Position numbers and translations under genes: made by a program
Shown here: piece by piece, positions 11,745 through 25,016 of the stretch
Layout: each line of letters begins with the position of its first letter
Position numbering within the stretch: the stretch's first letter is position 1
Source: Coriobacteriia bacterium
GTDB lineage: Bacteria > Actinomycetota > Coriobacteriia > Anaerosomatales > Kmv31
DNA length: 37,803 bases
Assembly: GCA_014859305.1 (NCBI GenBank)
Contig: JACUUM010000024.1
Coordinates: 1-37,803, forward strand
Reading direction: 5' to 3'
Notes under the pieces: model-generated
The model's database searches: none
The model's input: only the letters and a program-made list of their open reading frames with translations
Told to the model about the DNA's origin: nothing

Positions 11745-12830
11745 ATGAGACGCGAGAGAGCGTTGGGTGGAGCGGGTTCTCGCGGCGCGGGCCGGCGGCA
11801 CATCATTCCGGCCTTGAGAGGTGACGAGGGCGCGACGGCGACCGTCGTCGCGGTTCTGTTCGCGTTCGGTGTGCTGTTCGGCGTCGCGATGACCGTCGTG
11901 GACGCCGGCTCCCTGTACGCGACGCGCCGGAACCTGCAGTCGGCGGCCGATGCGGGCGCGCTCGCGGGGGTCCAGCAGCTTCCTTCCGATACGGCCGGCG
12001 CCGCCGCCGACGCCGACATCTACGTTCAGGAGAACGCCGCCTTTCCGGTGGAGTGGGTGACGTCGAGCTTCTCGAGCACGACCGGCTCGGGTTTCACCGA
12101 CACTATCCATGTCACCGTCCGAGGAACCGCTCCTGTCTTCTTCGCCCGGTGGTTCGGACATGGCGACAAGCCGATCGAAGCAGGGGCGACGGCCGTCGTG
12201 GGCTCGCCCACGACGTACGAGAGCGGCGTCATGCCCTTCGGCATCCTGGCCGAGGACCTCGCCCCACCGTACGGCCTCCCGCTGGGAGAGGAGTACACGC
12301 TCAAGCTCGCAGCCGGTGATGCCAGCCAGGGCAACTACCACATCGTCGACCTGACTTCCTTCTCCGACGAGAACAACACGAAGAACCTGATCAAAGACGG
12401 CGGGTCGAGCCAGCCCATCAGCATCGGCGACACGTTCCCCACACAACCGGGCAACGTCCAGGTGCCCAACTACAAGGCCCTGAACGACTACCTCAGCGGG
12501 TGCGACCACGAGTTCGCCGACCTTGTCCACGATGCGTCGGGGATCTACAAGCCGCCGCTCGACCCAGACGGGGTCTCGTGCCGGCGGTTCATCGTCTGCC
12601 CTGTCGTCGTGATCGACGGTCTGGCCGCACCCGAGTGCTTCGACTGGGAGGAGACGACAGGGGCCACGTACGTGAGGGTGATCGGCTTCCTGAACGTCTT
12701 CGTGAGGGGCGATGCGGATGCCGACGCCGGGACGATGACCGGAAGGCTGCTGCAGGTGGCGTCCACCGAGATGACAGGCAGGATGCCTCTGCAGCCCTAC
12801 GCAGGCGTGCGCTGGTGGTTGGAGGAGTAG
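11745..12830 (+). CDS. tadG: TadG-like Flp pilus assembly protein
   Basis: The 361-residue protein has an N-terminal Tad-type segment: a charged leader, DEGATATVVAVLFAFGVLFG as the membrane helix, then DAGSLYATRRNLQSAADAGA, which matches the putative Flp pilus-assembly TadE/G-like domain. The remaining 290 residues are extracytoplasmic, acidic, and carry several Cys (in SGCDHE, VSCRRF, VCPVV and PECFDW) that could form disulfides. It probably anchors or organises the pilus on the outer face of the membrane. The ATG overlaps the spacing after the tadE stop by one base gap, so the two are coupled. The distal domain has no family I can name. Confidence 0.82.
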   Translation: MRRERALGGAGSRGAGRRHIIPALRGDEGATATVVAVLFAFGVLFGVAMTVVDAGSLYATRRNLQSAADAGALAGVQQLPSDTAGAAADADIYVQENAAFPVEWVTSSFSSTTGSGFTDTIHVTVRGTAPVFFARWFGHGDKPIEAGATAVVGSPTTYESGVMPFGILAEDLAPPYGLPLGEEYTLKLAAGDASQGNYHIVDLTSFSDENNTKNLIKDGGSSQPISIGDTFPTQPGNVQVPNYKALNDYLSGCDHEFADLVHDASGIYKPPLDPDGVSCRRFIVCPVVVIDGLAAPECFDWEETTGATYVRVIGFLNVFVRGDADADAGTMTGRLLQVASTEMTGRMPLQPYAGVRWWLEE

Positions 12831-12870
12831 ACGCCGCAACGCGGCGACCAGGCCGACAGGGGGAGTAGCC

Positions 12871-13662
12871 TTGCGCTCGAGAATGATCATGATCGTCGTC
12901 GCACTGGTACTCGGCGGGTTCGCGGCCGTGCTGGCCGGACGTTATCTCACGAGCGCGAAGGCCACGATCGACGCGGACTCGCAGCCGGTGGAGGTCCTCG
13001 TCGCCGAGGCGGACATCCCCAGGGGCGTGAGCGCGGAGCAGCTCTTCGAGCAGAAGCTCGTCACCCGTGCCAGGATCCCGCGCAGGTTCGTCGCGGCCGG
13101 AGCGATATCCTCGGCGCGCATGGTCGAGGGGCAGGTGCTCGCCGTGCCCGTCTCTTCGGGCGAGCAGCTGAGCACGAGCCGCTTCCAGTACCCCAGCGAG
13201 GCGGGGCTCGCGCACAACGTGCCGAAGGACTACGTCGCCGTCTCCCTGCCCGTCGACATGGTGAGCGGCGTCTCCGGCCTCCTGAAGCCTGGCGACCACG
13301 TAGCGGTGATCCTCTCCCTCGCCGACGATGACGAGGGCGACGATAGCGTCACGAGGATCGTGGTCCGCAAGACGCGCGTCCTCGCGGTGGACCGCAGCGT
13401 GGGCGTGGAGAAGACCGAAGGCGTGACGCAGGCCGCGCAGGGTGGTCAGGGGCTCGGCTCCGGCGGTGTGGCACAACAGGAGACGGGGCCGATCACGGTG
13501 ACCCTGGCGCTCTCGCCCGAGGATGCTGAGAAGCTCGTGTACGGCGTGAACTTCGGTTTCGGTTCCCGCGACGACCGCAAGGTGTGGCTGGCGCTGTTGC
13601 CCGCGGACAGCGACGGCGCTCCGGTGACCGCGGGCGTCCGGCGCGCCGGCGTGTACAAGTAG
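12871..13662 (+). CDS. cpaB: Flp pilus assembly protein CpaB (RcpC family)
   Basis: The 263-residue protein starts with a membrane helix (MIMIVVALVLGGFAAVLAG), followed by an SAF-type domain (VEVLVAEADIPRGVSAEQLF, about residues 30-100) and the CpaB/RcpC domain (about 105-245) with SLPVDMVSGVSGLLKPGDHV. In diderm bacteria it works with the secretin; here no secretin is encoded, so it may act at the outer membrane face or cell wall. The TTG at 12871 has GGGGAG 6 bases upstream; an ATG at 12883 is in frame. A Gly/Gln-rich insertion lies near residues 188-205. The gene sits between tadG and the TadZ gene. Confidence 0.9.
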   Translation: MRSRMIMIVVALVLGGFAAVLAGRYLTSAKATIDADSQPVEVLVAEADIPRGVSAEQLFEQKLVTRARIPRRFVAAGAISSARMVEGQVLAVPVSSGEQLSTSRFQYPSEAGLAHNVPKDYVAVSLPVDMVSGVSGLLKPGDHVAVILSLADDDEGDDSVTRIVVRKTRVLAVDRSVGVEKTEGVTQAAQGGQGLGSGGVAQQETGPITVTLALSPEDAEKLVYGVNFGFGSRDDRKVWLALLPADSDGAPVTAGVRRAGVYK

Positions 13663-13670
13663 GCGGGACG

Positions 13671-14840
13671 ATGAGGATCCTGCTCGCAGAACCCGAAGAC
13701 CAGATATCGGCGCCGCTGGTCATCCTTTTGGACGGCGGTGCCGAGGACACTGTCGAGCGCTCGACTTGCGTCGACGACGCGCTCCAGCGCCTGACGCCGT
13801 CGGATCGGCCGCAGGTGCTCGTCGTAGGGCCGTCTCTGGCCGACGCGGCGACGCTCGTCAGGATCGAGGAGGCGCTGAACCGCTCCGATGCGGCGGTCGT
13901 CCTGCTCGCCAGGAATCTGGACACGGAGCTGCTGCGGCTGGCCATGCGCAGCGGCGTGAGTGACGTGCTGCCGGTGGACGAGGCATCTCCTCAGGAGGTG
14001 CTCGACGCCGTGCGCGCGGCGGGGACGGCCGCGTTCGAGCGCGCGCGAAAGCGCGGGCCGGAAGACCCCGGCGAGATCCAGCCCGAAGCGCGCGTGGTGA
14101 CGGTCTTCAGCACCAAGGGCGGTGTGGGCAAGACGTTCCTCTCGACGAACCTGGGCGTCGCGCTGGTGAGGAACCACGGCAAGCGTGTGATCCTGCTCGA
14201 CCTCGACCTGCAGTTCGGCGATGTCGGGATCGTCCTCGGCCTGGAGCCCAAGCGCACGATCCACGACGCGGCCCAGGTGTACGAACGGCTCGACTCGACG
14301 ATGCTCGAGGGTCTGCTCGTCGAGCATTCCTCGGGAGTGAGGGCGATGCTCGCCCCGGTGCGTCCCGAGGACTCCGAAGGGATAACATCCGCACGCGTCA
14401 ACGGGATCATCGGCCACCTCAGGAAGCTGGCCGACTACGTCGTGGTGGACACCTCGCCGGCCTTCTCGGACGTCGTCCTCGGGGCTCTCGACCAGAGCGA
14501 CGCGGTCTACGTGGTGACGACGATGGACGTCGCCAGCATCAAGAACACCAAGATCTCGATGCAGAAGCTGCATCAGCTGGGATACGACGGGGATCTTATG
14601 CGCCTCGTGCTCAACAGGGCCGACAGCAAGGTCTTCCTGGAAGAGGGGAAGGTCTCGGAAGCGATAGGTGCTCCGATCGGAGCACGGATACCCAGCGACC
14701 TGCTCGTCCCCAGGTCGATCAACAAGGGTGTTCCCGTGGTTCTGGACGCTCCCAAGTCCAGGGTGGCGCGCAGCATCGATGAGATCGCGCGGGACGTCGT
14801 GCGGCGCTTCGAACAGGAGAGGACGGACGATGTCGCTTAG
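13671..14840 (+). CDS. cpaE: CpaE/TadZ pilus-positioning ATPase
   Basis: The 389-residue protein has two parts. Residues 1-125 form a receiver-like domain (MRILLAEPED) in which the usual phosphorylated Asp position reads VLVVGPS, so it is a degenerate receiver as in other TadZ proteins. Residues 140-385 are a ParA/MinD ATPase with the deviant Walker A KGGVGKT at 149-155, then VILLDLDLQFGDVGIVLGL and DYVVVDTSPAFSD. It is expected to localise the pilus machine at the membrane or pole. The start is 8 bases after the cpaB stop. Its stop overlaps the cpaF start by 11 bases. Confidence 0.92.
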   Translation: MRILLAEPEDQISAPLVILLDGGAEDTVERSTCVDDALQRLTPSDRPQVLVVGPSLADAATLVRIEEALNRSDAAVVLLARNLDTELLRLAMRSGVSDVLPVDEASPQEVLDAVRAAGTAAFERARKRGPEDPGEIQPEARVVTVFSTKGGVGKTFLSTNLGVALVRNHGKRVILLDLDLQFGDVGIVLGLEPKRTIHDAAQVYERLDSTMLEGLLVEHSSGVRAMLAPVRPEDSEGITSARVNGIIGHLRKLADYVVVDTSPAFSDVVLGALDQSDAVYVVTTMDVASIKNTKISMQKLHQLGYDGDLMRLVLNRADSKVFLEEGKVSEAIGAPIGARIPSDLLVPRSINKGVPVVLDAPKSRVARSIDEIARDVVRRFEQERTDDVA

Positions 14841-16185
14841 GGACCGGTTGGCTCAAGCCTCTCCGCGGGAATTCTCCGACCAGGTCTTGGCGGATCCCTC
14901 TTCAAGGAAGGCCAGGGACGCGATAACCGGGCACCTTCACTATCTCCTGATCGAGGAGATGGGACCGGCGCTGGACGACCTGGGAGACGGCATCGGCCTC
15001 CGCTACGAGATCGAGCGGAGGCTCAGGGAGCACCTGAGGGAGGAGACAACACCGCTCTCCGAGGCGGACCGCGGCGAGATCATCCAGGACGTAGTGGACA
15101 ACGTGCTCGGATACGGTCCGATCGAGAGCTTCCTGAACGACCCGTCGGTCACGGAGGTCATGGTCAACAACCCGGACGCCGTCTACATCGAGCGCGCGGG
15201 CAAGATCCACCGCACCGACCGGCGCTTCGTCGACGAGGACCACCTGAGGAGGATCATCGACAAGATCGTGGGGAGGGTGGGCAGGCGGATCGACGAGAGC
15301 TCCCCGCTGGTCGACGCCCGCCTCCCCGACGGCTCCCGGGTGAACGCCATCATCCACCCCCTCGCCGTCAACGGACCGATGCTGACGATACGCAAGTTCT
15401 CCGTCGAGCCCTACACGGCCGAGGATCTCGTAGGGTTCGGATCGCTGACTCCCAACCTGGTGCGGTTCCTCGAGGCCTCGGTGAGGGGGAAGCTGAACGT
15501 GCTCATCTCGGGGGGGACCGGCACCGGCAAGACGACCCTGCTGAACGTCTTGTCCTCGTTCGTGCCGCACGACGAGCGGATAGTGACCATCGAGGATGCC
15601 GCGGAGTTGCGGTTGAACCAGGAGCACGTGCTACGCCTCGAATCACGACCGGCGAACATCGAGGGCAAGGGGCAGGTGACGATACGCGACCTCGTTCGCA
15701 ACTCCCTGAGGATGCGCCCCGACCGCATCATCGTGGGCGAGGTACGCGGCGGTGAGGCGCTCGACATGCTGCAGGCGATGAACACCGGTCACGAAGGGTC
15801 GCTCTCGACGATCCACGCGAACTCGGCGCGCGACGCGCTGGCGCGGCTGGAGACGATGGTCATGATGGCCGGGTTCGACCTCCCGGTCACCGCCATCAGG
15901 CAACAGGCGTGTGCCGCGCTCGATCTCATCGTTCATCTCACCCGCTTGAACGACGGGTCTCGCCGCGCCACGCATGTCACCGCAGTGGAGGGCATGGAGG
16001 GCGAGACGATCGTCCTTCAGGACATCTTCTACTTCGACTATTCCGCCGGTCTGGACCCCGAGGGGCGGTTCCTCGGCAGGCTGAAGACGACGGGGCTGCG
16101 CCCCAAAGTCGTGCGCAAGCTGGAGGATCTCGGTATCGTGCTCCAGGCTGACCTGTTCGAGTACGAGCCGCCGGAGCGGGCGTGA
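14830..16185 (+). CDS. cpaF: CpaF/TadA pilus assembly and retraction ATPase
   Basis: This is the cytoplasmic secretion ATPase that powers Tad pilus assembly, 451 residues, normal for the family. Walker [10 protein letters not shown] is at 228-236, [20 protein letters not shown] is the following conserved box, Walker B is [16 protein letters not shown], and the His-containing motif is [19 protein letters not shown]. The N-terminal region contains [20 protein letters not shown], diagnostic of CpaF. ATG 14830 is preceded by AGGAGAGG and overlaps the end of cpaE; the stop overlaps the GTG of the VWA-TadB gene. It works on the TadB/TadC platform encoded next. Confidence 0.96.
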
Positions 16186-18110
16186 CGATGCAGGGCCTTC
16201 GGCACACATCCGTGGCGCTCTTGTTGGTGGGAGCCCTGGCGACGCTTCCCGTGCTCACCGCCTCGGCGGACCAGGCAGGTCTCGACCTGAGCGTGCACGG
16301 CATCGACGCGGACTCGTACCCGCTGGTCACGCTCGAGATCGGGCTGCCCGCGGAGATGCTCGATCGCGAGGGTCTCGCGCATCCGGAGTTCGAGGTGACC
16401 GAGAACGGGGAGGCGGTCTGGCTGGCCAGGTCGTCACGCTTGGACCCGGAGGCCTCGGACGTGAACATCGTCCTGGTCATGGACACGAGCCGCAGCATGA
16501 AGGGCAGACCGCTCGAGGACGCGCAACAGGCTGCGAGGACGTTCTGCGCCGACATGGGCGGGCGCGCGCCCGTAGCGCTGGTAGCGTTCAGCTCCGAGCC
16601 GGAAGTCGTCGTGCCTTTCACGAGGGACCGGGACTCTCTCCTGCGGGGAGTCGAGTCGCTGACGGCACATGGCGGGACGGCCGTGTATGACGCACTGGTC
16701 ACCTCGGCGCGGATCCTGTCCGTGACGCGGGAGGGGAGGCGTGTCGTCGTGCTGTTGTCCGACGGCGGGGACACGTCTAGCGTACGCAACCTCGATATGA
16801 CGGTACGGGCACTGCAGGATGCGAACGCGGTGGTGCTCTCCGTGGCCCTGCGATCCCCCGACCTCAACGAGAGCGCTCTCGGCACTCTGGCCTCCCGGAC
16901 GCGGGGCAGGAGCGTCTCGTTCGCGGACAGCGGCGGCCTCTCGGACTACTACGCGGGGCTGGCGCGCGAGTTCAGCAGCGTCTACTCGGTCACCTACAGG
17001 AGCTCGGAGCCCCATACGAAGGACATCGAGGTGGACATCCGTGCCGAGGCCGGCGGCAGGCATGCCACGGCCGCCACCGTGTTTCCCAACCCGGCGTACC
17101 TCCAGGCCGTGGAGTGGGCGGGCACGGGGCTTTCGGTCCCCGCCGCCGCCCCCGCCTACCTCGTCGGCTCCGTCTCGCTCGCGTTCGGCTCCGTCGTCAT
17201 CCTGGCATTCGCCGGACTGTTGTCGCTCCTCGGAAGGCGGGGACGACTCGACCAGCTCCGATACTACGACCAACTGCACGGCGAGACCGGCGCACCTCGC
17301 GATCCGGAACGCGACCTGTGCGCGAGGGTCGTCGAGGCTGTGGGAGCGGTGGCGGGACGGCGCGGCTTCACCCAGCCCATAGCCCAGAAGCTCGAGAGGG
17401 CGGGCGTCTCCCTGAGGCCGGCCGAGTACATCACCGCTCACATCACAACGGTCGTGCTCCTCGGCTGGGTCGTCCAGATGCTTTCCGGCGATCTGACGCT
17501 GAGCCTCGTGACCATCGTGCTCGCCAGCGTCGGCCCGCTCGCGCTCCTGGATGGCAAGGGCCGAAGGCGGACGGCGGCGTTCGACGCCCAGCTGCCGGAT
17601 GTCCTGAACCTGGTCGCCGGAGGCCTTCGGACCGGCTGGGGCCTGCAGCAGGCGCTCGAACTGGTGGTCAACGAGGGCAGGCCGCCCGCTTCCGTCGAGT
17701 TCAAGCGCGTGCAGATCGAGACGCGGCTGGGTGTGCCGGTCGAGCAGTCGCTCCAAGGGGTCGCGGACAGGCTCGGCAGCCGGCAGTTCGCCTGGGTCGT
17801 CGTGGCCGTCGCGATCCAGCGCGAAGTCGGGGGGAACCTCGCCGAGGTGCTCGACAACGTAGCGCGTTCCGTTCGCGACCGCGAGGCGCTGGAGCGCCAG
17901 GTCGAGGCGCTCACGGCCGAAGGCAAGCTCTCCGCGATCATCCTGACGGTCCTGCCGTTCGCGGTCGCGGGCGGGCTCTGGCTCATGAGCCCGACGTACA
18001 TGATGACGGCGATCGGCAGCCCACTGGGAGCGGCGATGTTCACCAGCGCCGGGCTTCTGCTGTTCGTCGGCGTCATGTGGCTCAGGCGGGTATCGAGGAT
18101 CGAGTACTGA
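16182..18110 (+). CDS. tadB: VWA-TadB fusion: secreted von Willebrand A domain joined to a type II secretion F platform protein
   Basis: The 642-residue protein is about twice the usual TadB length. Residues 1-29 form a signal peptide-like segment. Residues about 94-275 are a von Willebrand A domain with a complete metal site: D101-T-S-R-S105, T166 in GGTAVYD and D194 in LLSDGGD. A membrane span (325-350) follows, then a charged linker, two spans (about 416-455), the T2SF cytoplasmic domain (FDAQLPDVLNLVAGGLRTGW onwards, 467-580) and two C-terminal spans. The predicted topology puts the VWA domain outside and the T2SF domain inside. GTG 16182 overlaps the cpaF stop; ATG 16188 is an alternative. 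The T2SF half is the pilus base; the VWA role, probably adhesion or pilus contact, is inference. Confidence 0.92.
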   Translation: MTMQGLRHTSVALLLVGALATLPVLTASADQAGLDLSVHGIDADSYPLVTLEIGLPAEMLDREGLAHPEFEVTENGEAVWLARSSRLDPEASDVNIVLVMDTSRSMKGRPLEDAQQAARTFCADMGGRAPVALVAFSSEPEVVVPFTRDRDSLLRGVESLTAHGGTAVYDALVTSARILSVTREGRRVVVLLSDGGDTSSVRNLDMTVRALQDANAVVLSVALRSPDLNESALGTLASRTRGRSVSFADSGGLSDYYAGLAREFSSVYSVTYRSSEPHTKDIEVDIRAEAGGRHATAATVFPNPAYLQAVEWAGTGLSVPAAAPAYLVGSVSLAFGSVVILAFAGLLSLLGRRGRLDQLRYYDQLHGETGAPRDPERDLCARVVEAVGAVAGRRGFTQPIAQKLERAGVSLRPAEYITAHITTVVLLGWVVQMLSGDLTLSLVTIVLASVGPLALLDGKGRRRTAAFDAQLPDVLNLVAGGLRTGWGLQQALELVVNEGRPPASVEFKRVQIETRLGVPVEQSLQGVADRLGSRQFAWVVVAVAIQREVGGNLAEVLDNVARSVRDREALERQVEALTAEGKLSAIILTVLPFAVAGGLWLMSPTYMMTAIGSPLGAAMFTSAGLLLFVGVMWLRRVSRIEY

Positions 18111-18111
18111 G

Positions 18112-19038
18112 ATGACTGTGACTATCGCGTTGGTGTTCGCGGCCGCGGCGCTCTTCGCGTACGGCGGCATGTCGATGGTCTTCGGCGACGAGAAGCTGGT
18201 CGCACGCCGCCTGAAGGGTATGACCGACTACGAGATGGCGCAGATACGGGAAGCCGAGCCGGTCCTGCAGTCGTTCCAGGAGCGCGTGCTGGTCCCGTTC
18301 GGCAGGGGCGTGCATGGCCTCCTCCAGCGTGTGTGGCCGAAGGAGTACTGGAGCCGCCTCTCCGCTCGGGTCACCATCGCGGGCAGGCCCGGCGGGATGG
18401 GCGCCGAGTCGTTCTTCGCCGTGAAGCTGGGCACGGCCCTGCTGCTGCCGTCGCTGGCCGCCGCCCTCATCGCGTTCCTCCCTTGGTCGTTCGGCATGAA
18501 GCTCCTGTTCCTCGCGGTGCTTGCGGTGCTCGCATACCTGTCGCCGAACCTGTGGCTCTCCTCCGTCACCCGTTCCCGCCAGGACGGGATCCGTCGCGAG
18601 TTGCCGGACATGCTGGACATGCTGACGATAAGCGTCGAGGCGGGTCTGGGTTTCGACGCCGCGCTGTCGAAGTACGTCAAGAACAGCGACGGCGCGCTCG
18701 CGCGCGAGTTCGGGAGGGCCCTGCAGGAGGTGCAGGCCGGAGCGTCGCGCAAGGAGGCGTTGAAGCGTCTGGCGGAGCGAGCTGACGTCACCCCCCTCAG
18801 CTCGTTCGTCTCGGCGATGGTCCAGGCCGACGTCCTCGGGATGAGCATCGCGAACGTCCTGCGCGTGCAATCGGAGGAGATGCGTCTGAGGAGGCGCCAG
18901 CACGCCGAGCGCCAGGCTCAGAAGCTGCCGGTGAAGATGATCTTCCCTGTCATCCTGTTCATCCTGCCCGCGACTCTGATCGTCGTGCTCGGCCCCGCGA
19001 TGATCGCTCTGATGCGGTTGTTCGGCGGGAACGGCTGA
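18112..19038 (+). CDS. tadC: TadC-like type II secretion system F protein
   Basis: This is the second inner-membrane platform protein of the Tad pilus, 308 residues. One N-terminal span (MTVTIALVFAAAALFAYGG) and paired spans near residues 103-147 precede the T2SF domain (RRELPDMLDMLTISVEAGLG through LSSFVSAMVQADVLGMSIAN), and a last span closes the protein (MIFPVILFILPATLIVVLG). TadC should form a heteromer with the T2SF half of the VWA-TadB protein and engage the CpaF ATPase. The ATG starts one base after the previous stop. It is the last gene of the operon; a 158-base gap to folE holds a small hairpin. Confidence 0.93.
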   Translation: MTVTIALVFAAAALFAYGGMSMVFGDEKLVARRLKGMTDYEMAQIREAEPVLQSFQERVLVPFGRGVHGLLQRVWPKEYWSRLSARVTIAGRPGGMGAESFFAVKLGTALLLPSLAAALIAFLPWSFGMKLLFLAVLAVLAYLSPNLWLSSVTRSRQDGIRRELPDMLDMLTISVEAGLGFDAALSKYVKNSDGALAREFGRALQEVQAGASRKEALKRLAERADVTPLSSFVSAMVQADVLGMSIANVLRVQSEEMRLRRRQHAERQAQKLPVKMIFPVILFILPATLIVVLGPAMIALMRLFGGNG

Positions 19039-19148: not shown

Positions 19149-19196
19149 GTGACGCACGCCGGGCCGCGGGGGCGGCTCGCCGGACGGAGGCCGCGC

Positions 19197-19766
19197 TTGG
19201 ACCGCGACAAGATCATCGAAGGTGTACGCCTGATGCTGGAGGGCATCGGCGAGGACCCCTCGCGCGAGGGGCTCCTCGGCACGCCCGAGCGAGTGGCCGA
19301 CATGTACGGCGAGATCTTCGCCGGGATCACCGAGGACGCCGCCGAGCACTTCTGCGTGACCTTCGACGAGGGGCACCGCGAGATGATCCTCGTGCGCGAC
19401 ATCCCCCTGTACTCGGTGTGCGAGCACCACCTGGTTCCATTCATCGGGCGCGCGCACGTCGCCTACATCCCCGGCTCCCACGGCCGCATCTGCGGGCTGT
19501 CCAAGCTGGCGCGCGTCGTGGACGTCTTCGCGAAGCGCCTGCAGGTCCAGGAGCGCCTGACCGCCCAGATCGCGGACACGATCGTGGAGCACCTGCTGCC
19601 CCAGGGCGTGATGGTCGTGATCGAGGCCGAGCACCTGTGCATGTCGATGCGCGGCGTCCAGAAGGCCGGCGCCGTCACCACGACCTCTGCCGTGCGCGGC
19701 GGCTTCGAGACCAACCCCGCCACCCGGGCCGAGGCCATGTCGCTGATCATGGCCGGCCGCGGGTAG
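19197..19766 (+). CDS. folE: GTP cyclohydrolase I
   Basis: FolE converts GTP to dihydroneopterin triphosphate, the first step of folate synthesis. The zinc ligands are C75 and H78 in [10 protein letters not shown] and C148 in [22 protein letters not shown] and [20 protein letters not shown] are further family motifs. The start is TTG 19197 because CGGAGG lies 6 bases upstream and the protein then begins [11 protein letters not shown], as in other FolE; a GTG at 19149 would add 16 residues without homology. The length is 189 residues. The neighbouring cca gene is convergent, 31 bases away, and the next folate gene is beyond it. Confidence 0.96.
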
Positions 19767-19797: not shown

Positions 19798-21246
19798 CTA
19801 CCGCCCCGCGCGCTCCAGCACCCGCCGCACGTGCGCCAGCGCGTCGTCGCGCGTGGCGAGCTCGCCCGAGAGCTGCCGCTCCCGCACCTCGTCGAGCAGC
19901 CGGCCGAGCAGCGGGCCGGGCGGCAAGGACAGCTCGTCGATGAGGTCGCCGCCGGTGATGAGCGGGCGGGTCTCCAGCCTGGGCCCGACCCTCTCGTAGT
20001 ACTCGCCGATGAGCGCCCCGGCGAAGCGCCGCATCGACTCGGTCCGCGCGGGGTCGCTCGCCGGTCCTCGGGTGGCCATCCCGTCGGCCGCCGCGAGGAG
20101 CAGCAGCGCGACGCCGGCCTCGCCGTTGCGGCGGAAGAAGCGGAAGAGCCGCTTGTCGGAGAGCGGGCGGCTCGCCTCCAGGTCCGCCGGCACCAGGTGA
20201 CGGTCCACGTACGCCTCCAGCTCCGCGATCTCGCGCACGCTCAGGCGCAGGCGCCCGCCGGCCTCTCGCGCCGCCCGCGAGCCGATGCGGCTGTGGGTGT
20301 AGAAGGTGACCCTTCCGGCGTCCTCGCGCCGTGCCGGGGGCTTGCCGAGGTCGTGCAGGAGCGCGGCGAGCTTGAGCAGCGCCCGCCTCGGCCGCTCCTC
20401 CACCGGCTCCTCGTCGAGGAAGGCCAGCACCCGCCGGGCGTGCTCCCCGGCCAGCGCCGGCAGGTCGCCGAGGAGACGCTCCAGCATGGCGAGGGTCTCC
20501 AGCGAGTGGTGCCAGACGTCCAGGTGGTGATACTCGTTCTGGGTCACGCCCCGCATCGGCAGCGTCTCGGGCAGCGCGGCGGCCAGGACGCCGCACGCGT
20601 CCGCCGCAGTGACGCACGCGGCCGAGAGGGGCTCGGCGAGCATGAGGAAGAGCTCGCGGGCGGTGCGCTCGGGCGCCGAGCGCGTGAGGTCGGCGGCGTG
20701 CTCGCCGACCCAGTCCAGCGTCTGCGGGTCGATCCCGAACCCGAGCGTGGCCGCGAACCGGAAGGCGCGCAGAGTCCGGAGCGGGTCGTCGGCGAAGGCC
20801 CGCTCGCTCACCGCGCGCACGACGCCTCCCCGCAGGTCCTCCTCGCCGCCGAACGGGTCGATCAGGGCCTCCTCCGCGCCGAGCGGGCCGAACGCCATCG
20901 CGTTGATGGTGAAGTCGCGGCGCGCGAGGTCGCCGTCGAGCGTGCCGGCGAACGCGGTGACGTCGTAGGTGACGCGGTCGGGAGTCACGATCCGGACCGT
21001 GCCGCGCTCCTCGGCCAGCGGCACGTAGGCGGCGCCGAGGCGTCCGGCCAGCGCGCGCCCATAGGCGGGCGCGTCGCCTCCGAGCGCGACGTCGATGTCG
21101 GCGAGCGCCTGCGGGCGGCCGAGCAGCGCGTCGCGTACCGTCCCGCCCACGAGGTACGCTTCCTCGCCGCGGGAGGAGGCCAGGTCGGCGACCGGGGCGA
21201 TGCGCCGGCGCAGCGCGCCGTCGGGCAGGCGCGGGTCCTGGGACAT
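19798..21246 (-). CDS. cca: CCA tRNA nucleotidyltransferase / poly(A) polymerase-family protein with HD domain
   Basis: The 482-residue protein belongs to the class II nucleotidyltransferases. GGTVRD is at residues 34-39, the metal-binding DID at 50-52, RRDFTINAMAFG near 109-120 and DPLRTLRAFRFAATLGF at 154-170. The C-terminal half holds an HD domain (LLHDLGK, H298-D299) as in many Gram-positive CCA enzymes, where it may have phosphohydrolase activity. It should repair or add the 3' CCA of tRNAs. The ATG at 21246 has GAGGGGAGAG upstream. It is on the strand opposite to the folate genes and separates folE from folP. Poly(A) polymerase or a split A- or CC-adding enzyme cannot be excluded by sequence alone. 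Confidence 0.9.
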   Translation of the reverse strand: MSQDPRLPDGALRRRIAPVADLASSRGEEAYLVGGTVRDALLGRPQALADIDVALGGDAPAYGRALAGRLGAAYVPLAEERGTVRIVTPDRVTYDVTAFAGTLDGDLARRDFTINAMAFGPLGAEEALIDPFGGEEDLRGGVVRAVSERAFADDPLRTLRAFRFAATLGFGIDPQTLDWVGEHAADLTRSAPERTARELFLMLAEPLSAACVTAADACGVLAAALPETLPMRGVTQNEYHHLDVWHHSLETLAMLERLLGDLPALAGEHARRVLAFLDEEPVEERPRRALLKLAALLHDLGKPPARREDAGRVTFYTHSRIGSRAAREAGGRLRLSVREIAELEAYVDRHLVPADLEASRPLSDKRLFRFFRRNGEAGVALLLLAAADGMATRGPASDPARTESMRRFAGALIGEYYERVGPRLETRPLITGGDLIDELSLPPGPLLGRLLDEVRERQLSGELATRDDALAHVRRVLERAGR

Positions 21247-21271
21247 GTCTCTCCCCTCTTGTCTCCAGACG

Positions 21272-21277
21272 TATACT
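21272..21277 (+). promoter_or_regulatory. Possible -10 (TATACT) in the cca-folP divergent region
   Basis: TATACT matches TATAAT at five of six positions in otherwise GC-rich DNA. The sequence ATAGTATA on the opposite strand could serve cca, so the site may fire both ways. No -35 match was found on either side. Confidence 0.45.
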
Positions 21278-21342
21278 ATCCGCCACGGGCCGCCCGAGCG
21301 GCGGGCCGGCGAGCGGACTCCCGGCGGCGAGAGGAGCTGACG

Positions 21343-22191
21343 GTGGGCGTGTGGCGATGCGGCCGCTTCGAGCTGCCGACGGATCGAGCGCTGGTCATGG
21401 GCATCCTGAACGTCACGCCGGACTCCTTCTCCGACGGCGGCCGGTTCGTCGGCCCCGGCGGCGTCGACGCGGAGGCCGCCCTGCGGGAGGGGCTGGCGAT
21501 GGCGGCGGCCGGCGCCGCTGTCCTGGACGTCGGCGGGGAGTCGACGCGCCCCGGGGCCGCCGAGGTGTCCCCGGCCGAGGAGGTGGCCCGGATCGAGCCG
21601 GTAGTGCGCGGGCTCGCCGAGGCGGGGGGCTGCGCCGTCTCGGTCGACACCCGGCACGCCGAGGTGGCGCGGGCGTGCCTGGAAGCGGGCGCGGACGTGC
21701 TCAACGACGTCGCGGGCTTCCGGGACGGAGCCATGGTGGAGGTCGCTGCCGGCAGCACGGCGGGCTGCTTGGTGATGCACATGCTCGGCGAGCCCCGCAC
21801 GATGCAGGACGACCCGCGCTACGGCGACGTCGTGGCCGACGTGAAGGCGTGGCTGCTCCGGCGCGTCGAGACGCTGGTGGACGCCGGCGTCGACCGCGAC
21901 CGCATCGCGATAGACCCCGGGATCGGGTTCGGCAAGACGACCGCGCACAACCTGGAGCTGCTGAGGCGGCTGCCCGAGCTCGTCGCCACCGGGCACCCCG
22001 TCGTCGTGGGTGCCTCGCGCAAGCGGTTCATCGGCGAGATCGCCGGAGGCGGCCCCGAGGAGCGGCTCGAGGGCAGCCTCGCCGCCGCGGTCTGGGCGGC
22101 GGCCATGGGCGCGGCGGCGGTGCGCGTGCACGACGTCGGGCCGACGGTGCGCGCCCTGGCCGTGACGGGCGCGATCGGAGGCGCCGGCTGA
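21343..22191 (+). CDS. folP: Dihydropteroate synthase
   Basis: FolP condenses dihydropterin pyrophosphate with p-aminobenzoate. The 282-residue protein carries all signature regions: MGILNVTPDSFSDGG near residues 18-32, DVGGESTRPGA, the DPGIGFGKT loop with the following N, and VGASRKRFIGEI for sulfonamide/pABA-site residues. GTG 21343 is preceded by GAGAGGAG at about 7 bases. The cca start is 96 bases away on the other strand, with a shared promoter region. folK follows after 98 bases; no folB lies between them. Confidence 0.96.
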   Translation: MGVWRCGRFELPTDRALVMGILNVTPDSFSDGGRFVGPGGVDAEAALREGLAMAAAGAAVLDVGGESTRPGAAEVSPAEEVARIEPVVRGLAEAGGCAVSVDTRHAEVARACLEAGADVLNDVAGFRDGAMVEVAAGSTAGCLVMHMLGEPRTMQDDPRYGDVVADVKAWLLRRVETLVDAGVDRDRIAIDPGIGFGKTTAHNLELLRRLPELVATGHPVVVGASRKRFIGEIAGGGPEERLEGSLAAAVWAAAMGAAAVRVHDVGPTVRALAVTGAIGGAG

Positions 22192-22289: not shown

Positions 22290-23129
22290 GTGGCCGTCGA
22301 AGCGTACATAGGCCTCGGCACGAACATCGGCGACCGGATCGGCAACATCGCGCGCGCGCTCAAGGAGATGGACGAGCTGGAAGAGGTCCGGCTGCGCGCC
22401 GTCTCGCACGTGTACGAGTCGGAGCCTTGGGGGGTGCCGGACCAGCCGACGTACGCGAACGCCGCTGCGCGCATCCGCACCACGCTGCAGGCCGACGAGC
22501 TCCTCGGCCGGTTGCAGGCCATAGAGGCGGCGATGGGACGCGTGCCCGGCGAGAGGTGGGGTCCGCGCGTGATCGACCTGGACATCCTGCTCTTCGGCGA
22601 CGAGGAGTGGGCCAGCGAGACGCTCACGATCCCTCACCCGAGGATGGGGGAGCGCGATTTCGTGGTCCACCCGCTGATGGAGGTAGCGCCCAAGGGGCTG
22701 CGCTACCCCGACGGACGCCCGGTATCGAGGCGCGGGTGGCTCGGCCGGTGCAAGAACGATCTCGGACCGGTGCCGGGGTTCGAGGAGCTCTCGCCGGTTC
22801 CCGCCGAGGGCGGGGAGCTGGTGTGCTCGCTGGAGGAGCCGCAAGCGCCGGGACCGGTGGTTCCCGGCGATGTGGGGCAGTGGCGGACGATCGCCACGAC
22901 AGCCGGCTTCGGCCGCCTCGACACGGGGGAGTCGCCGCTGGCGTTCAAGGAGTCGGTACTGCGGGACGAGGGGATCCCCTACGCCTACGACCCGCACCCG
23001 CCGGCTGGCGGCTTCAACCCGTGGGGCCTCGGCGCGCAGATCAAGCTGAAGGTGCCGGCCTCGGAGTACGAGCGGGCCGTCGAGGCGATCCGGGGCGCCG
23101 AGCGGGAGCGTTCCGAGGAGCGCAGCTAG
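22290..23129 (+). CDS. folK: HPPK (FolK) with C-terminal DUF2007-like domain
   Basis: Residues 1-145 are 6-hydroxymethyl-dihydropterin pyrophosphokinase: AYIGLGTNIGDR, the PPP-loop region YESEPWGVPDQP, GERWGPRVIDLDILLFGD and IPHPRMGERDFVVHPL. It transfers pyrophosphate from ATP to the pterin. FolK proteins are normally about 160 residues; this one has 279. The extra part (about 195-270, from WRTIATTAGF to AVEAIRG) resembles DUF2007, with ESVLRDEGIPYAY and KLKVPASEYERAVEAI. A linker with two Cys joins them. GTG 22290 follows GGAGG at 4 bases; GTG 22203 would add 29 residues of low-complexity sequence. The extension is not FolB-like. Confidence 0.9.
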   Translation: MAVEAYIGLGTNIGDRIGNIARALKEMDELEEVRLRAVSHVYESEPWGVPDQPTYANAAARIRTTLQADELLGRLQAIEAAMGRVPGERWGPRVIDLDILLFGDEEWASETLTIPHPRMGERDFVVHPLMEVAPKGLRYPDGRPVSRRGWLGRCKNDLGPVPGFEELSPVPAEGGELVCSLEEPQAPGPVVPGDVGQWRTIATTAGFGRLDTGESPLAFKESVLRDEGIPYAYDPHPPAGGFNPWGLGAQIKLKVPASEYERAVEAIRGAERERSEERS

Positions 23130-23267: not shown

Positions 23268-24155
23268 GTGAGCCAGCATACGCCCCCGGAGCGGGAGCGG
23301 CGCCTCACCGTCACAGGCCTGCGCGCCATGAAGGGCGCCACCCGCCGCATCGTCGCGATCACCGCCTACGACGTCGCCTTCGCGCGCCTCGTCGACGCCG
23401 CGGGCGTGGACGTCGTGCTCGTGGGCGACTCGCTGGGCATGACCGTCCTCGGGCACGGTTCGACCCTGCCCGTGACCGTGGACGACATGGTGCGGCACAC
23501 CGCGGCCGTCTCCCGCGGCGTGGAGCGCGCCCTGCTCGTGGCGGACATGCCGTTCATGAGCTACCAGGCCGATCCCGCGGACGCGCTGCGCAACGCGGGG
23601 CGCCTGATGGCCGAGGGCGGGGCGCAGGCGGTCAAGCTGGAGGGCGGACGCCAGGTGGCGCCGACGATCGAGCGCCTCGTCGGTGCCGGCATCCCCGTCA
23701 TAGGGCACGTCGGCCTCACGCCGCAGTCGGTGCACGCGATGGGCGGCTACCGCGTGCAGGCGCGCGAGACCGTCACCGCGCTGCGGCTGCTGGACGAGTG
23801 CCGCGCGCTGGCCGAGGCCGGCGCCTTCGCCGTGGTGCTCGAGTGCATCCCCGCCGAGCTCTCGGAAGTGGTGACCGCCGAGGTGGCGATCCCGACGATC
23901 GGGATAGGCGCCGGAGCGGGATGCGACGGCGAGGTGCAGGTGCTGCACGACCTCCTCGGGCTGACCGAGCAGACCCCCAGGCACGCCTCGCGCTTCGCGG
24001 AGATCGGCGGCGCCGTCGTGGAGGCGGTGCGCCGCTACGCGGAGCAGGTGCGCGCGGGCGAGTTCCCCGCGGAGGCGAACTGCACGCGGATGGAGCCCGC
24101 CGTCGTCGAGGAGTTGCGCCGCGCCGTCGGCGGGCGCGAGGGGCCGGAGGAGTAG
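23268..24155 (+). CDS. panB: 3-methyl-2-oxobutanoate hydroxymethyltransferase
   Basis: PanB makes ketopantoate from 2-oxoisovalerate and methylene-tetrahydrofolate, the first committed step of pantothenate synthesis. The 295-residue protein has AYDVAFARLVDAAGVDVVLV, GDSLGMTVLGH with the metal-binding Asp, VADMPFMSYQ, AVKLEGG and GHVGLTPQS, all typical. The GTG at 23268 follows a purine-rich ribosome site. It uses the folate cofactor whose synthesis genes lie just upstream. It is the first gene of panB-panC-nadA-nadB-nadC. Confidence 0.97.
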   Translation: MSQHTPPERERRLTVTGLRAMKGATRRIVAITAYDVAFARLVDAAGVDVVLVGDSLGMTVLGHGSTLPVTVDDMVRHTAAVSRGVERALLVADMPFMSYQADPADALRNAGRLMAEGGAQAVKLEGGRQVAPTIERLVGAGIPVIGHVGLTPQSVHAMGGYRVQARETVTALRLLDECRALAEAGAFAVVLECIPAELSEVVTAEVAIPTIGIGAGAGCDGEVQVLHDLLGLTEQTPRHASRFAEIGGAVVEAVRRYAEQVRAGEFPAEANCTRMEPAVVEELRRAVGGREGPEE

Positions 24156-24158
24156 CGC

Positions 24159-25016
24159 GTGGAGCTGCTGATCGCCAAGGAGGAGGTGCGAGAGGCGCTG
24201 GCCGAGGCCCGCCGCCGCGGCGCGCTCGTGGGCCTCGTGCCGACGATGGGCGCGCTGCACGAGGGGCACCTCTCGCTCGTGCGCGCGGCGGCGCGGCGCT
24301 GCGACGTGACGGCCGTCTCGGTCTTCGTGAACCCGACGCAGTTCGAGCGGCCCGACGACCTGGCGAGCTACCCGCGGGACCTGGAGCGCGACGTCGAGCT
24401 CCTGCGCGCCGAAGAGGCGACGTTCGTGTTCGCGCCCACGGCCGAGGAGGTCTACGGCGGAGGCGCCGAGGTCACGGTCGACCCCGGCCCGCTGGCACGG
24501 GTACTCGAGGGCGCGAGCCGTCCCGGGCACTTCGCGGGGGTGTGCACGGTGGTGGTCAAGCTGCTCAACGTCTTCATCCCCGACCTGGCGTTCTTCGGCG
24601 AGAAGGACTTCCAGCAGCTGCGGGTCCTCGAGCGGATGGTGCGCGACCTGGACTTCGGCGTGCGCGTGGTGGGATGCCCGACGGTGAGGGATGCCGACGG
24701 GCTCGCCATGTCGAGCCGCAACGCGATGCTCTCCCCCGAGGACCGAGCGGCGGCGCTGGCGCTCCCGCGAGCGCTCGAGGTCGCGCGCGAGGCCGCGCAC
24801 GGCGGCGAGCTCGACGCGCGCTGGGTCGCGGCCGCGATGGATTCCACGCTGGCCAGCGCCCCAGGAATCGAGCCGGACTACGCGGAGGTGGTCGACGAAC
24901 GGACGCTCGAGCCGCTCGAGCGGCTGGACCGCCCGGGTCGCGCGGTGGTGGCGGCCACGGTCGGAGGCGTGCGCCTGATCGACAACGCGGAGCTGGCGCC
25001 AGGGAGGACGGCGTGA
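24159..25016 (+). CDS. panC: Pantothenate synthetase
   Basis: PanC ligates pantoate and beta-alanine with ATP. The 285-residue protein shows LVPTMGALHEGHLSLVRAA with the HxGH nucleotide motif, VFVNPTQFERPDDLASYPRD, FFGEKDFQQLRVLERMVRDL and the KMS-like MSSRNAMLSPEDR. GTG 24159 lies 3 bases after the panB stop, with GGAGGAG upstream. The stop overlaps nadA. No panD (aspartate decarboxylase) is in the operon, so beta-alanine must come from a gene elsewhere. Confidence 0.97.
   Translation: MELLIAKEEVREALAEARRRGALVGLVPTMGALHEGHLSLVRAAARRCDVTAVSVFVNPTQFERPDDLASYPRDLERDVELLRAEEATFVFAPTAEEVYGGGAEVTVDPGPLARVLEGASRPGHFAGVCTVVVKLLNVFIPDLAFFGEKDFQQLRVLERMVRDLDFGVRVVGCPTVRDADGLAMSSRNAMLSPEDRAAALALPRALEVAREAAHGGELDARWVAAAMDSTLASAPGIEPDYAEVVDERTLEPLERLDRPGRAVVAATVGGVRLIDNAELAPGRTA

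Follow-up and report, generated by a model that had tools for sequence, protein, structure and literature searches.

FolK of a Coriobacteriia bacterium of the little-studied order Anaerosomatales, encoded within the 37,803-nucleotide stretch of DNA analysed here (the window), carries behind its HPPK domain a tail that comparison through its relatives securely places as a homologue of DUF2007. The domain recurs across the order, fused to FolK or encoded beside it, and has been rearranged repeatedly at this one locus. The reading that we favour, tentatively, is that the module is an adapter that would assemble FolK, probably with FolP; it is ranked ahead of a ligand sensor, which is a close rival.

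The folK gene and its surroundings

The gene, identified from its open reading frame, Pfam and NCBIfam matches and codon-position GC, occupies 22290..23129 on the plus strand and encodes a protein of 279 residues; an earlier reading of this DNA from its letters alone (the sequence-only reading) had its coordinates, strand and length right. Translation would start at a GTG, with GGAGG just 5' of it, and a single unbroken frame leads to the stop codon at 23127-23129. Third-position GC is 0.86-0.96 in 150-base steps from 22351 to 23100, and the pattern stays steady through the tail, which is therefore coding and in frame. A frameshift, named by the sequence-only reading as something that could help to undo its claim, or an assembly artefact that joined two genes is refuted and retains practically no weight: the frame is intact, codon-position GC does not shift, and the same architecture is repeated in 46 of the 54 genomes of the order with a FolK match.

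The HPPK catalytic domain, residues 6-134 (22305..22691, +), is matched by PF01288 (Pfam; E 1.1e-39; 135.9 bits against a cut-off of 25.7) and, over residues 5-134, by TIGR01498 folK (NCBIfam; E 5.8e-43; 146.1 bits against a cut-off of 54.1), and its best PDB matches are E. coli HPPK. N12, N57, E79, R84, R93, D96, D98 and H116 are invariant in all 39 rows of alignment A3, which covers 39 of the 47 tailed proteins; they align with E. coli N10, N55, E77, R82, R92, D95, D97 and H115, respectively, which are positions of mutant structures in the PDB. To judge from the sequence, the catalytic domain is full-length and keeps its active-site residues. The best 50 Foldseek matches of the full-length model are, every one, HPPK-containing structures. 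Beyond the HPPK domain come a variable linker, residues 135-195 (22692..22874, +), delimited by the alignment of relatives and by AlphaFold2 confidence, and the DUF2007-related tail domain, residues 196-274 (22875..23111, +), delimited by profiles and by the model, with a predicted beta-alpha-beta-beta-alpha order.

Around folK runs a folate-pantothenate series of folE (GTP cyclohydrolase I; 19149..19766, +; family match), folP (DHPS; 21397..22191, +; Pfam), folK, panB (23268..24155, +) and panC (24159..25016, +), the two pan genes being matched in both Pfam and NCBIfam; the position given for folP is where Pterin_bind begins (21397), its true start codon not being fixed. Within the window, folE and folP are set apart by a gene for a poly(A)-polymerase/CCA-type tRNA nucleotidyltransferase on the minus strand (19801-21285; Pfam), and in the relatives L003 and L006 folE, folP and folK adjoin one another. 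Upstream of folE lies a Tad/Flp-type pilus cluster (11745-19038, +) with TadE/G-like proteins, a ParA-like ATPase, a T2SSE ATPase, a VWA-T2SSF protein and T2SSF; VWA-T2SSF and T2SSF likewise precede folE in L003.

The tail is related to DUF2007

Taken singly, the window tail is matched by no Pfam model, at a limit of E 1 or of 0.01, and by no NCBIfam model, and it is absent from the PF09413 (DUF2007) matches at E 10 in a search of its own genome. The HMM search of residues 190-279 alone that the sequence-only reading had proposed thus finds nothing, and by itself would have seemed to speak against the kinship. A profile made from the tails of 46 relatives, with the window left out, nevertheless finds the window tail at E 2.8e-19, the next best of the 385 ORFs of the window standing at E 0.69. 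When the 47 tails of alignment A1 (46 from the 61 genomes described below, plus L004) were scanned one by one, 17 reached E 0.01 or better against PF09413, the strongest at 1.6e-7, and none matched a different Pfam family, PII and ACT included. The Pfam cut-off for PF09413, 25.7 bits, is not reached by the window copy; in the genome search it is exceeded by the tails of G012 (30.6 bits), G051 (27.3) and G056 (27.0), and among whole FolK proteins by L109 (39.6), L111 (50.3), L110 (27.7) and L108 (27.8), with the FolK of L046 falling below it.

Profile-profile comparison agrees. Alignment of A1 by hhalign with 26 DUF2007 proteins encoded by other genomes in the phylum (A5, 26 of the 33 DUF2007 sequences read) gave a probability of 97.6 and E 4.7e-12, and a rerun without the window row, against all 33, gave E 7.1e-12. 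A profile of the 33 sequences places the window FolK first among the ORFs of the window, albeit at no better than E 0.074, and the profile of the 26 finds the solved DUF2007 structure 2HFV at E 0.0014; profile A1 against PDB sequences yields chance matches only. We conclude that the tail is securely homologous to DUF2007 by sequence comparison through its relatives; because the window copy misses the family threshold, we call it DUF2007-related and not a formal member of PF09413. The sequence-only reading, which had recognized a DUF2007 pattern from about residue 195, is thus upheld as to homology, with the domain beginning near W198, but not as to any direct Pfam match of the window copy.

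The subfamily is also represented in the window's genome (G000) by a free-standing protein of 115 residues (L001, 1474-1818, -, on contig C2; PF09413 E 0.0058; tail profile E 1.8e-13), adjoining what appears by eye to be a small membrane protein. Two DUF2007 proteins of another group within the phylum, L146 and L147, end in a zinc-ribbon-like segment with four cysteines.

Distribution and rearrangement at the folK locus

Our sample comprised 61 genomes, that of the window and 60 of the same order, and FolK was matched in 54 of them. A complete tail on FolK is present in 46 of these; in G017 the tail lies beyond a run of N, and in G007 a tail fragment stands at a contig end, its HPPK not being seen. 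The tail is missing from FolK in six genomes (G011, G022, G026, G035, G038 and G044), five of which have, between folP and folK, a gene for a separate protein of this subfamily. The sixth, G026, has no such gene adjoining its tailless FolK, and a similar domain occurs only elsewhere in its genome. Hence the same fusion and the adjacent gene, for both of which the sequence-only reading had suggested a search in relatives, were found, and the domain is at, or apparently at, the folK locus in 53 of 54 genomes (46 tailed, G017, G007 and the five with a separate gene). Dropped before these counts were L008 (Bacteroidales, HPPK only), L009, the duplicates L011, L022, L024 and L026, L061 (a run of N inside the gene), L064 (tail fragment only), L062 (a second, tailless FolK of G058) and L063 (another FolK of G029, truncated where the contig ends). 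L062, on contig C8, resembles FolK, is about 180 residues long and shares 40% identity with the FolK of the window; it may be a paralogue or contamination; L063 (2831-3700, -) is FolK-like and has a DUF2007-related tail.

Run against a class-wide set of 296 genomes, the tail profile matched, not necessarily at folK, 56 of 69 listed genomes of the same order and one of the 227 others, 219 matchless genomes not being listed by name. A full-length FolK profile matched 356 of 396 genomes of the phylum; among the matches listed, the tail is reached in four genomes only (G000, G012, G023 and G030), all of the same order, and the remaining matches listed stop at profile position 193 or earlier. Since no FolK outside the order reaches the tail among the matches listed, HPPK and DHPS can evidently work without it. 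DUF2007 itself is found above the Pfam threshold in 32 out of 149 genomes sampled from the phylum.

The commonest architecture, that of the window included, is HPPK-DUF2007. DUF2007-HPPK-DUF2007 occurs in G039, G048 and G056, with two stretches each by Pfam and the tail profile, and by the tail profile in G051 and G059. In G008 the domain also stands behind DHPS, Pterin_bind being recognized there by Pfam and the DUF2007-related part by profile A1 (E 5.3e-22); FolK of this genome consists of HPPK, the domain and a hydrophobic C-terminus. A strongly hydrophobic, membrane-anchor-like C-terminal segment is found in four of the five separate proteins, and the FolK of G008 and the second FolK of G029 end likewise. 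Two of the five separate proteins score only about 0.001 with the tail profile, both sharing the motif by alignment, and in Pfam four have no match at E 1, while the fifth matches only PF09413, below its threshold (E 0.06).

When 53 HPPK domains are placed on a tree, three changes account for the presence or absence of the tail; every one of 500 shuffles of the label needed more. Tailed L007 and L043, which lacks the tail but has the separate gene, are sisters (97/90). A short motif like DDPEALRRAEAAV stands N-terminal to HPPK in one family and also in the separate genes of another (loci L023, L025, L030, L038, L043, L057 and L059), as if an upstream gene had fused to folK and the domain had been lost in places.

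Selection on the tail and its linker

In eight close pairs, dN/dS calculated by a simple Nei-Gojobori procedure was 0.07-0.30 for HPPK, 0.05-0.44 for the tail (last 85 aligned codons) and 0.12-0.50 for the linker. The tail lies at or below HPPK in five pairs and is looser in three (L016/L017, L023/L032 and L038/L025); it is under purifying selection in all eight. These values bear on the view that the tail is a neutral passenger, an old fusion in the ancestor of the order that was kept without a role. G026, which has neither tail nor adjacent gene, would fit such a history, as would the faster evolution of the tail in three of the pairs and a mean column identity among tails of only 22%. A passenger is not expected, however, to be held by purifying selection in every pair or to undergo cis/trans and N/C rearrangement at one locus while a copy stays there in 53 of 54 genomes, and we consider this history improbable. 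The chance fusion of neighbours that the sequence-only reading had allowed for is rejected because of the breadth of the association, the purifying selection and the repeated rearrangement at the same locus.

The nearly invariant positions of the tail, W198, L224, G228, I229, P235, L253, V255, P256 and A263, seem to lie in the core and in turns. In 41 of 47 tails an acidic residue stands at position 234 and a basic one at 252, and the tail alignment contains no invariant polar residue. The stretch from G163 to W198 varies between 13 and 55 residues in the 39 rows of A3. The two linker cysteines noted from the sequence do exist (C154 and C179) but are not conserved: behind HPPK, Cys is absent from 29 of the 38 relatives in A3 and occurs once in each of the other nine. 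A redox or metal role for C154/C179 was considered and rejected, the cysteines not being conserved.

Predicted fold and the case for a possible sensor

AlphaFold2 (six sequences) modelled the whole protein with a pLDDT of 71.9, falling below 50 at residues 173-195, and the tail alone with a pLDDT of 75.7 as strand-helix-strand-strand-helix. The top fold match of the tail by VIA-align is to secretion-system ring-building domains (Z 7.0, 3.9 Å, 61 residues). Its match to 2HFV (Z 6.1, rmsd 5.9 over 73 residues) is tied with unrelated folds, and that to aspartokinase ACT domains is weak (Z about 5). In Foldseek all matches of the tail are at E 0.15 or worse, and the best-ranked ones include aspartokinase ACT domains and PII. 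Domains of all three kinds, ring-building, ACT and PII, are of types that assemble into oligomers. With every match weak and none standing out (VIA-align Z 7.0 or less), the model weakly suggests a fold of the ferredoxin/ACT-like class and nothing more specific. An ACT/ferredoxin-like fold had been proposed from the sequence as something that structure prediction could address; the predicted beta-alpha-beta-beta-alpha order and the ACT/PII neighbourhood agree with it, but through weak matches.

Such a fold could belong to a regulatory sensor, in line with the ligand-dependent control of the pterin pathway that the sequence-only reading had raised as one possibility; in such a sensor the tail would bind a metabolite (a pterin, folate, a nucleotide or a pantothenate-pathway compound) and an ACT/PII-like domain would tune HPPK. 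Besides the predicted topology and the aspartokinase ACT and PII rows, the acidic and basic residues at 234 and 252 in 41 of 47 tails would suit a binding site, and Pfam labels DUF2007 a putative signal transducer. In the accessible part of the literature, DUF2007 has been placed in a PII-type family (PMC11841066) and listed among the domains joined to universal stress proteins (PMC3673472), both of which count for a sensor. The Pfam name comes, however, without a demonstrated function for DUF2007 in the accessible portions of the literature examined; an invariant polar residue is absent from the tail, and a G163-W198 length of 13-55 residues is a poor fit to tight allosteric coupling. We regard a sensor as possible, and as a close second to the adapter proposed below.

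The missing dihydroneopterin aldolase step

FolB (PF02152) was found in none of the 61 same-order genomes, by a search that was positive in 10 of 14 controls; across the class it was found in 61 of 296 genomes, all of other orders. FolE was found in 54 of the 61. The order is thus marked out by a dihydroneopterin aldolase step of folate synthesis without a recognizable gene. The accessible part of PMC5041015 gives ExxHGH as the motif of folate PTPS-III, an alternative to FolB. PTPS occurs in 58 of the 61 genomes (59 matches), and the 13 loci read carry C-x-x-x-HGH, with R or H and not E three places before HGH, which is the QueD motif and not that of PTPS-III. PTPS-III as a substitute for FolB was accordingly set aside, its motif not being seen in the 13 of 59 PTPS matches read. 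The transaldolase family had no match in the one genome searched, that of the window.

With folE, folP and folK present and folB not found, the tail itself could be imagined to supply the missing step, and the lack of FolB in all 61 genomes, of ExxHGH in the 13 PTPS read and of a transaldolase-family match in the window's genome would leave room for this. The tail alignment offers no invariant acid, lysine or tyrosine, however, the best acid being position 234 (41 of 47), and G026 has neither a domain at folK nor FolB. The tail is an unlikely aldolase, and a poor candidate, because genomes of other orders in the class, such as G062 and G063, have FolK without either FolB or the tail; of the functional readings, we give this one very little credence.

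A tentative adapter for FolK and FolP

The adapter that we lean towards would be a small self-associating module on a flexible tether. It would join FolK molecules to one another and probably to FolP, and in certain lineages would also bring FolK to the membrane, so that the HPPK product would be handed efficiently to DHPS; HPPK catalysis itself would be ordinary and would not need the tail. An adapter is preferred somewhat over a tightly coupled allosteric domain, and much over an enzyme, because the module occurs in cis as well as in trans, can sit at either end of FolK and in one genome is attached to FolP; its linkers span 13-55 residues, its core is conserved and none of its polar residues is invariant.

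Several observations argue for this preference. The domain is at, or apparently at, the folK locus in 53 of 54 genomes, with a further copy on the DHPS of G008 and copies on both sides of HPPK in some proteins. The sisterhood of L007 and L043 is as expected of interchangeable cis and trans forms. The hydrophobic ends, the low dN/dS of the tail, its core-like conserved residues and its resemblance to folds of oligomer-forming types point the same way. Counted against an adapter, gene neighbourhood and fusion fit a ligand sensor too, and the acidic 234 and basic 252 leave room for a small polar site. We also count against it the weak fold matches, the weak Pfam and profile scores of the separate proteins, the looser evolution of the tail in three of eight pairs, the lack of an adjacent domain gene in G026 and, among the matches listed, FolK outside the order without the tail.

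A broader proposal, which we put forward as speculative and rather unlikely as a whole, is that DUF2007 is an interchangeable cis/trans assembly module, serving here a FolK-FolP folate metabolon that is membrane-tethered in some lineages and having the same role for other proteins elsewhere. If true, this would be the first function assigned to the DUF2007 family.

Comparison with known systems

A near-universal and repeatedly rearranged link to FolK and FolP within one order provides a concrete handle on the common domain DUF2007. The module is tied to folate synthesis, so its role is testable: HPPK can be assayed by a standard method, and nature offers fused, tailless and separate-partner forms for comparison. 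No report of a FolK-DUF2007 fusion was met in the accessible text of the literature searched, although it may be catalogued in domain databases such as InterPro. The protein represents a known enzyme in a domain arrangement that is new, and it gives DUF2007 a new partner in FolK.

An ordinary FolK of about 160 residues likewise has a full HPPK domain, and the closest solved relatives are E. coli HPPK; unlike it, the window protein adds a 61-residue linker region and a tail domain of about 80 residues. In the known folate fusions HPPK-DHPS and DHNA-HPPK (S. pneumoniae, 2CG8), HPPK is likewise joined to a partner tied to its own pathway, and in Bifidobacterium longum FolB is fused to a duplicated FolK, according to the accessible part of PMC1971073. 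The partner in those fusions is a pathway enzyme, whereas in the window it is a domain of uncharacterized function with no sign of catalysis.

DUF2007 proteins (PF09413) are mostly small, as in the solved example 2HFV; unlike them, the folK-linked domain is fused to, or encoded beside, a folate enzyme. The folK-linked subfamily has the motif W..., GIP.aWDP..P....P.G....RLLVP, which other DUF2007 share only partly. The nearest parallel in kind is with the universal stress proteins, in which, as far as the accessible parts of PMC3673472 and PMC11841066 go, DUF2007 is likewise joined to another domain; there its partner is a stress protein, whereas in the window it is a biosynthetic enzyme.
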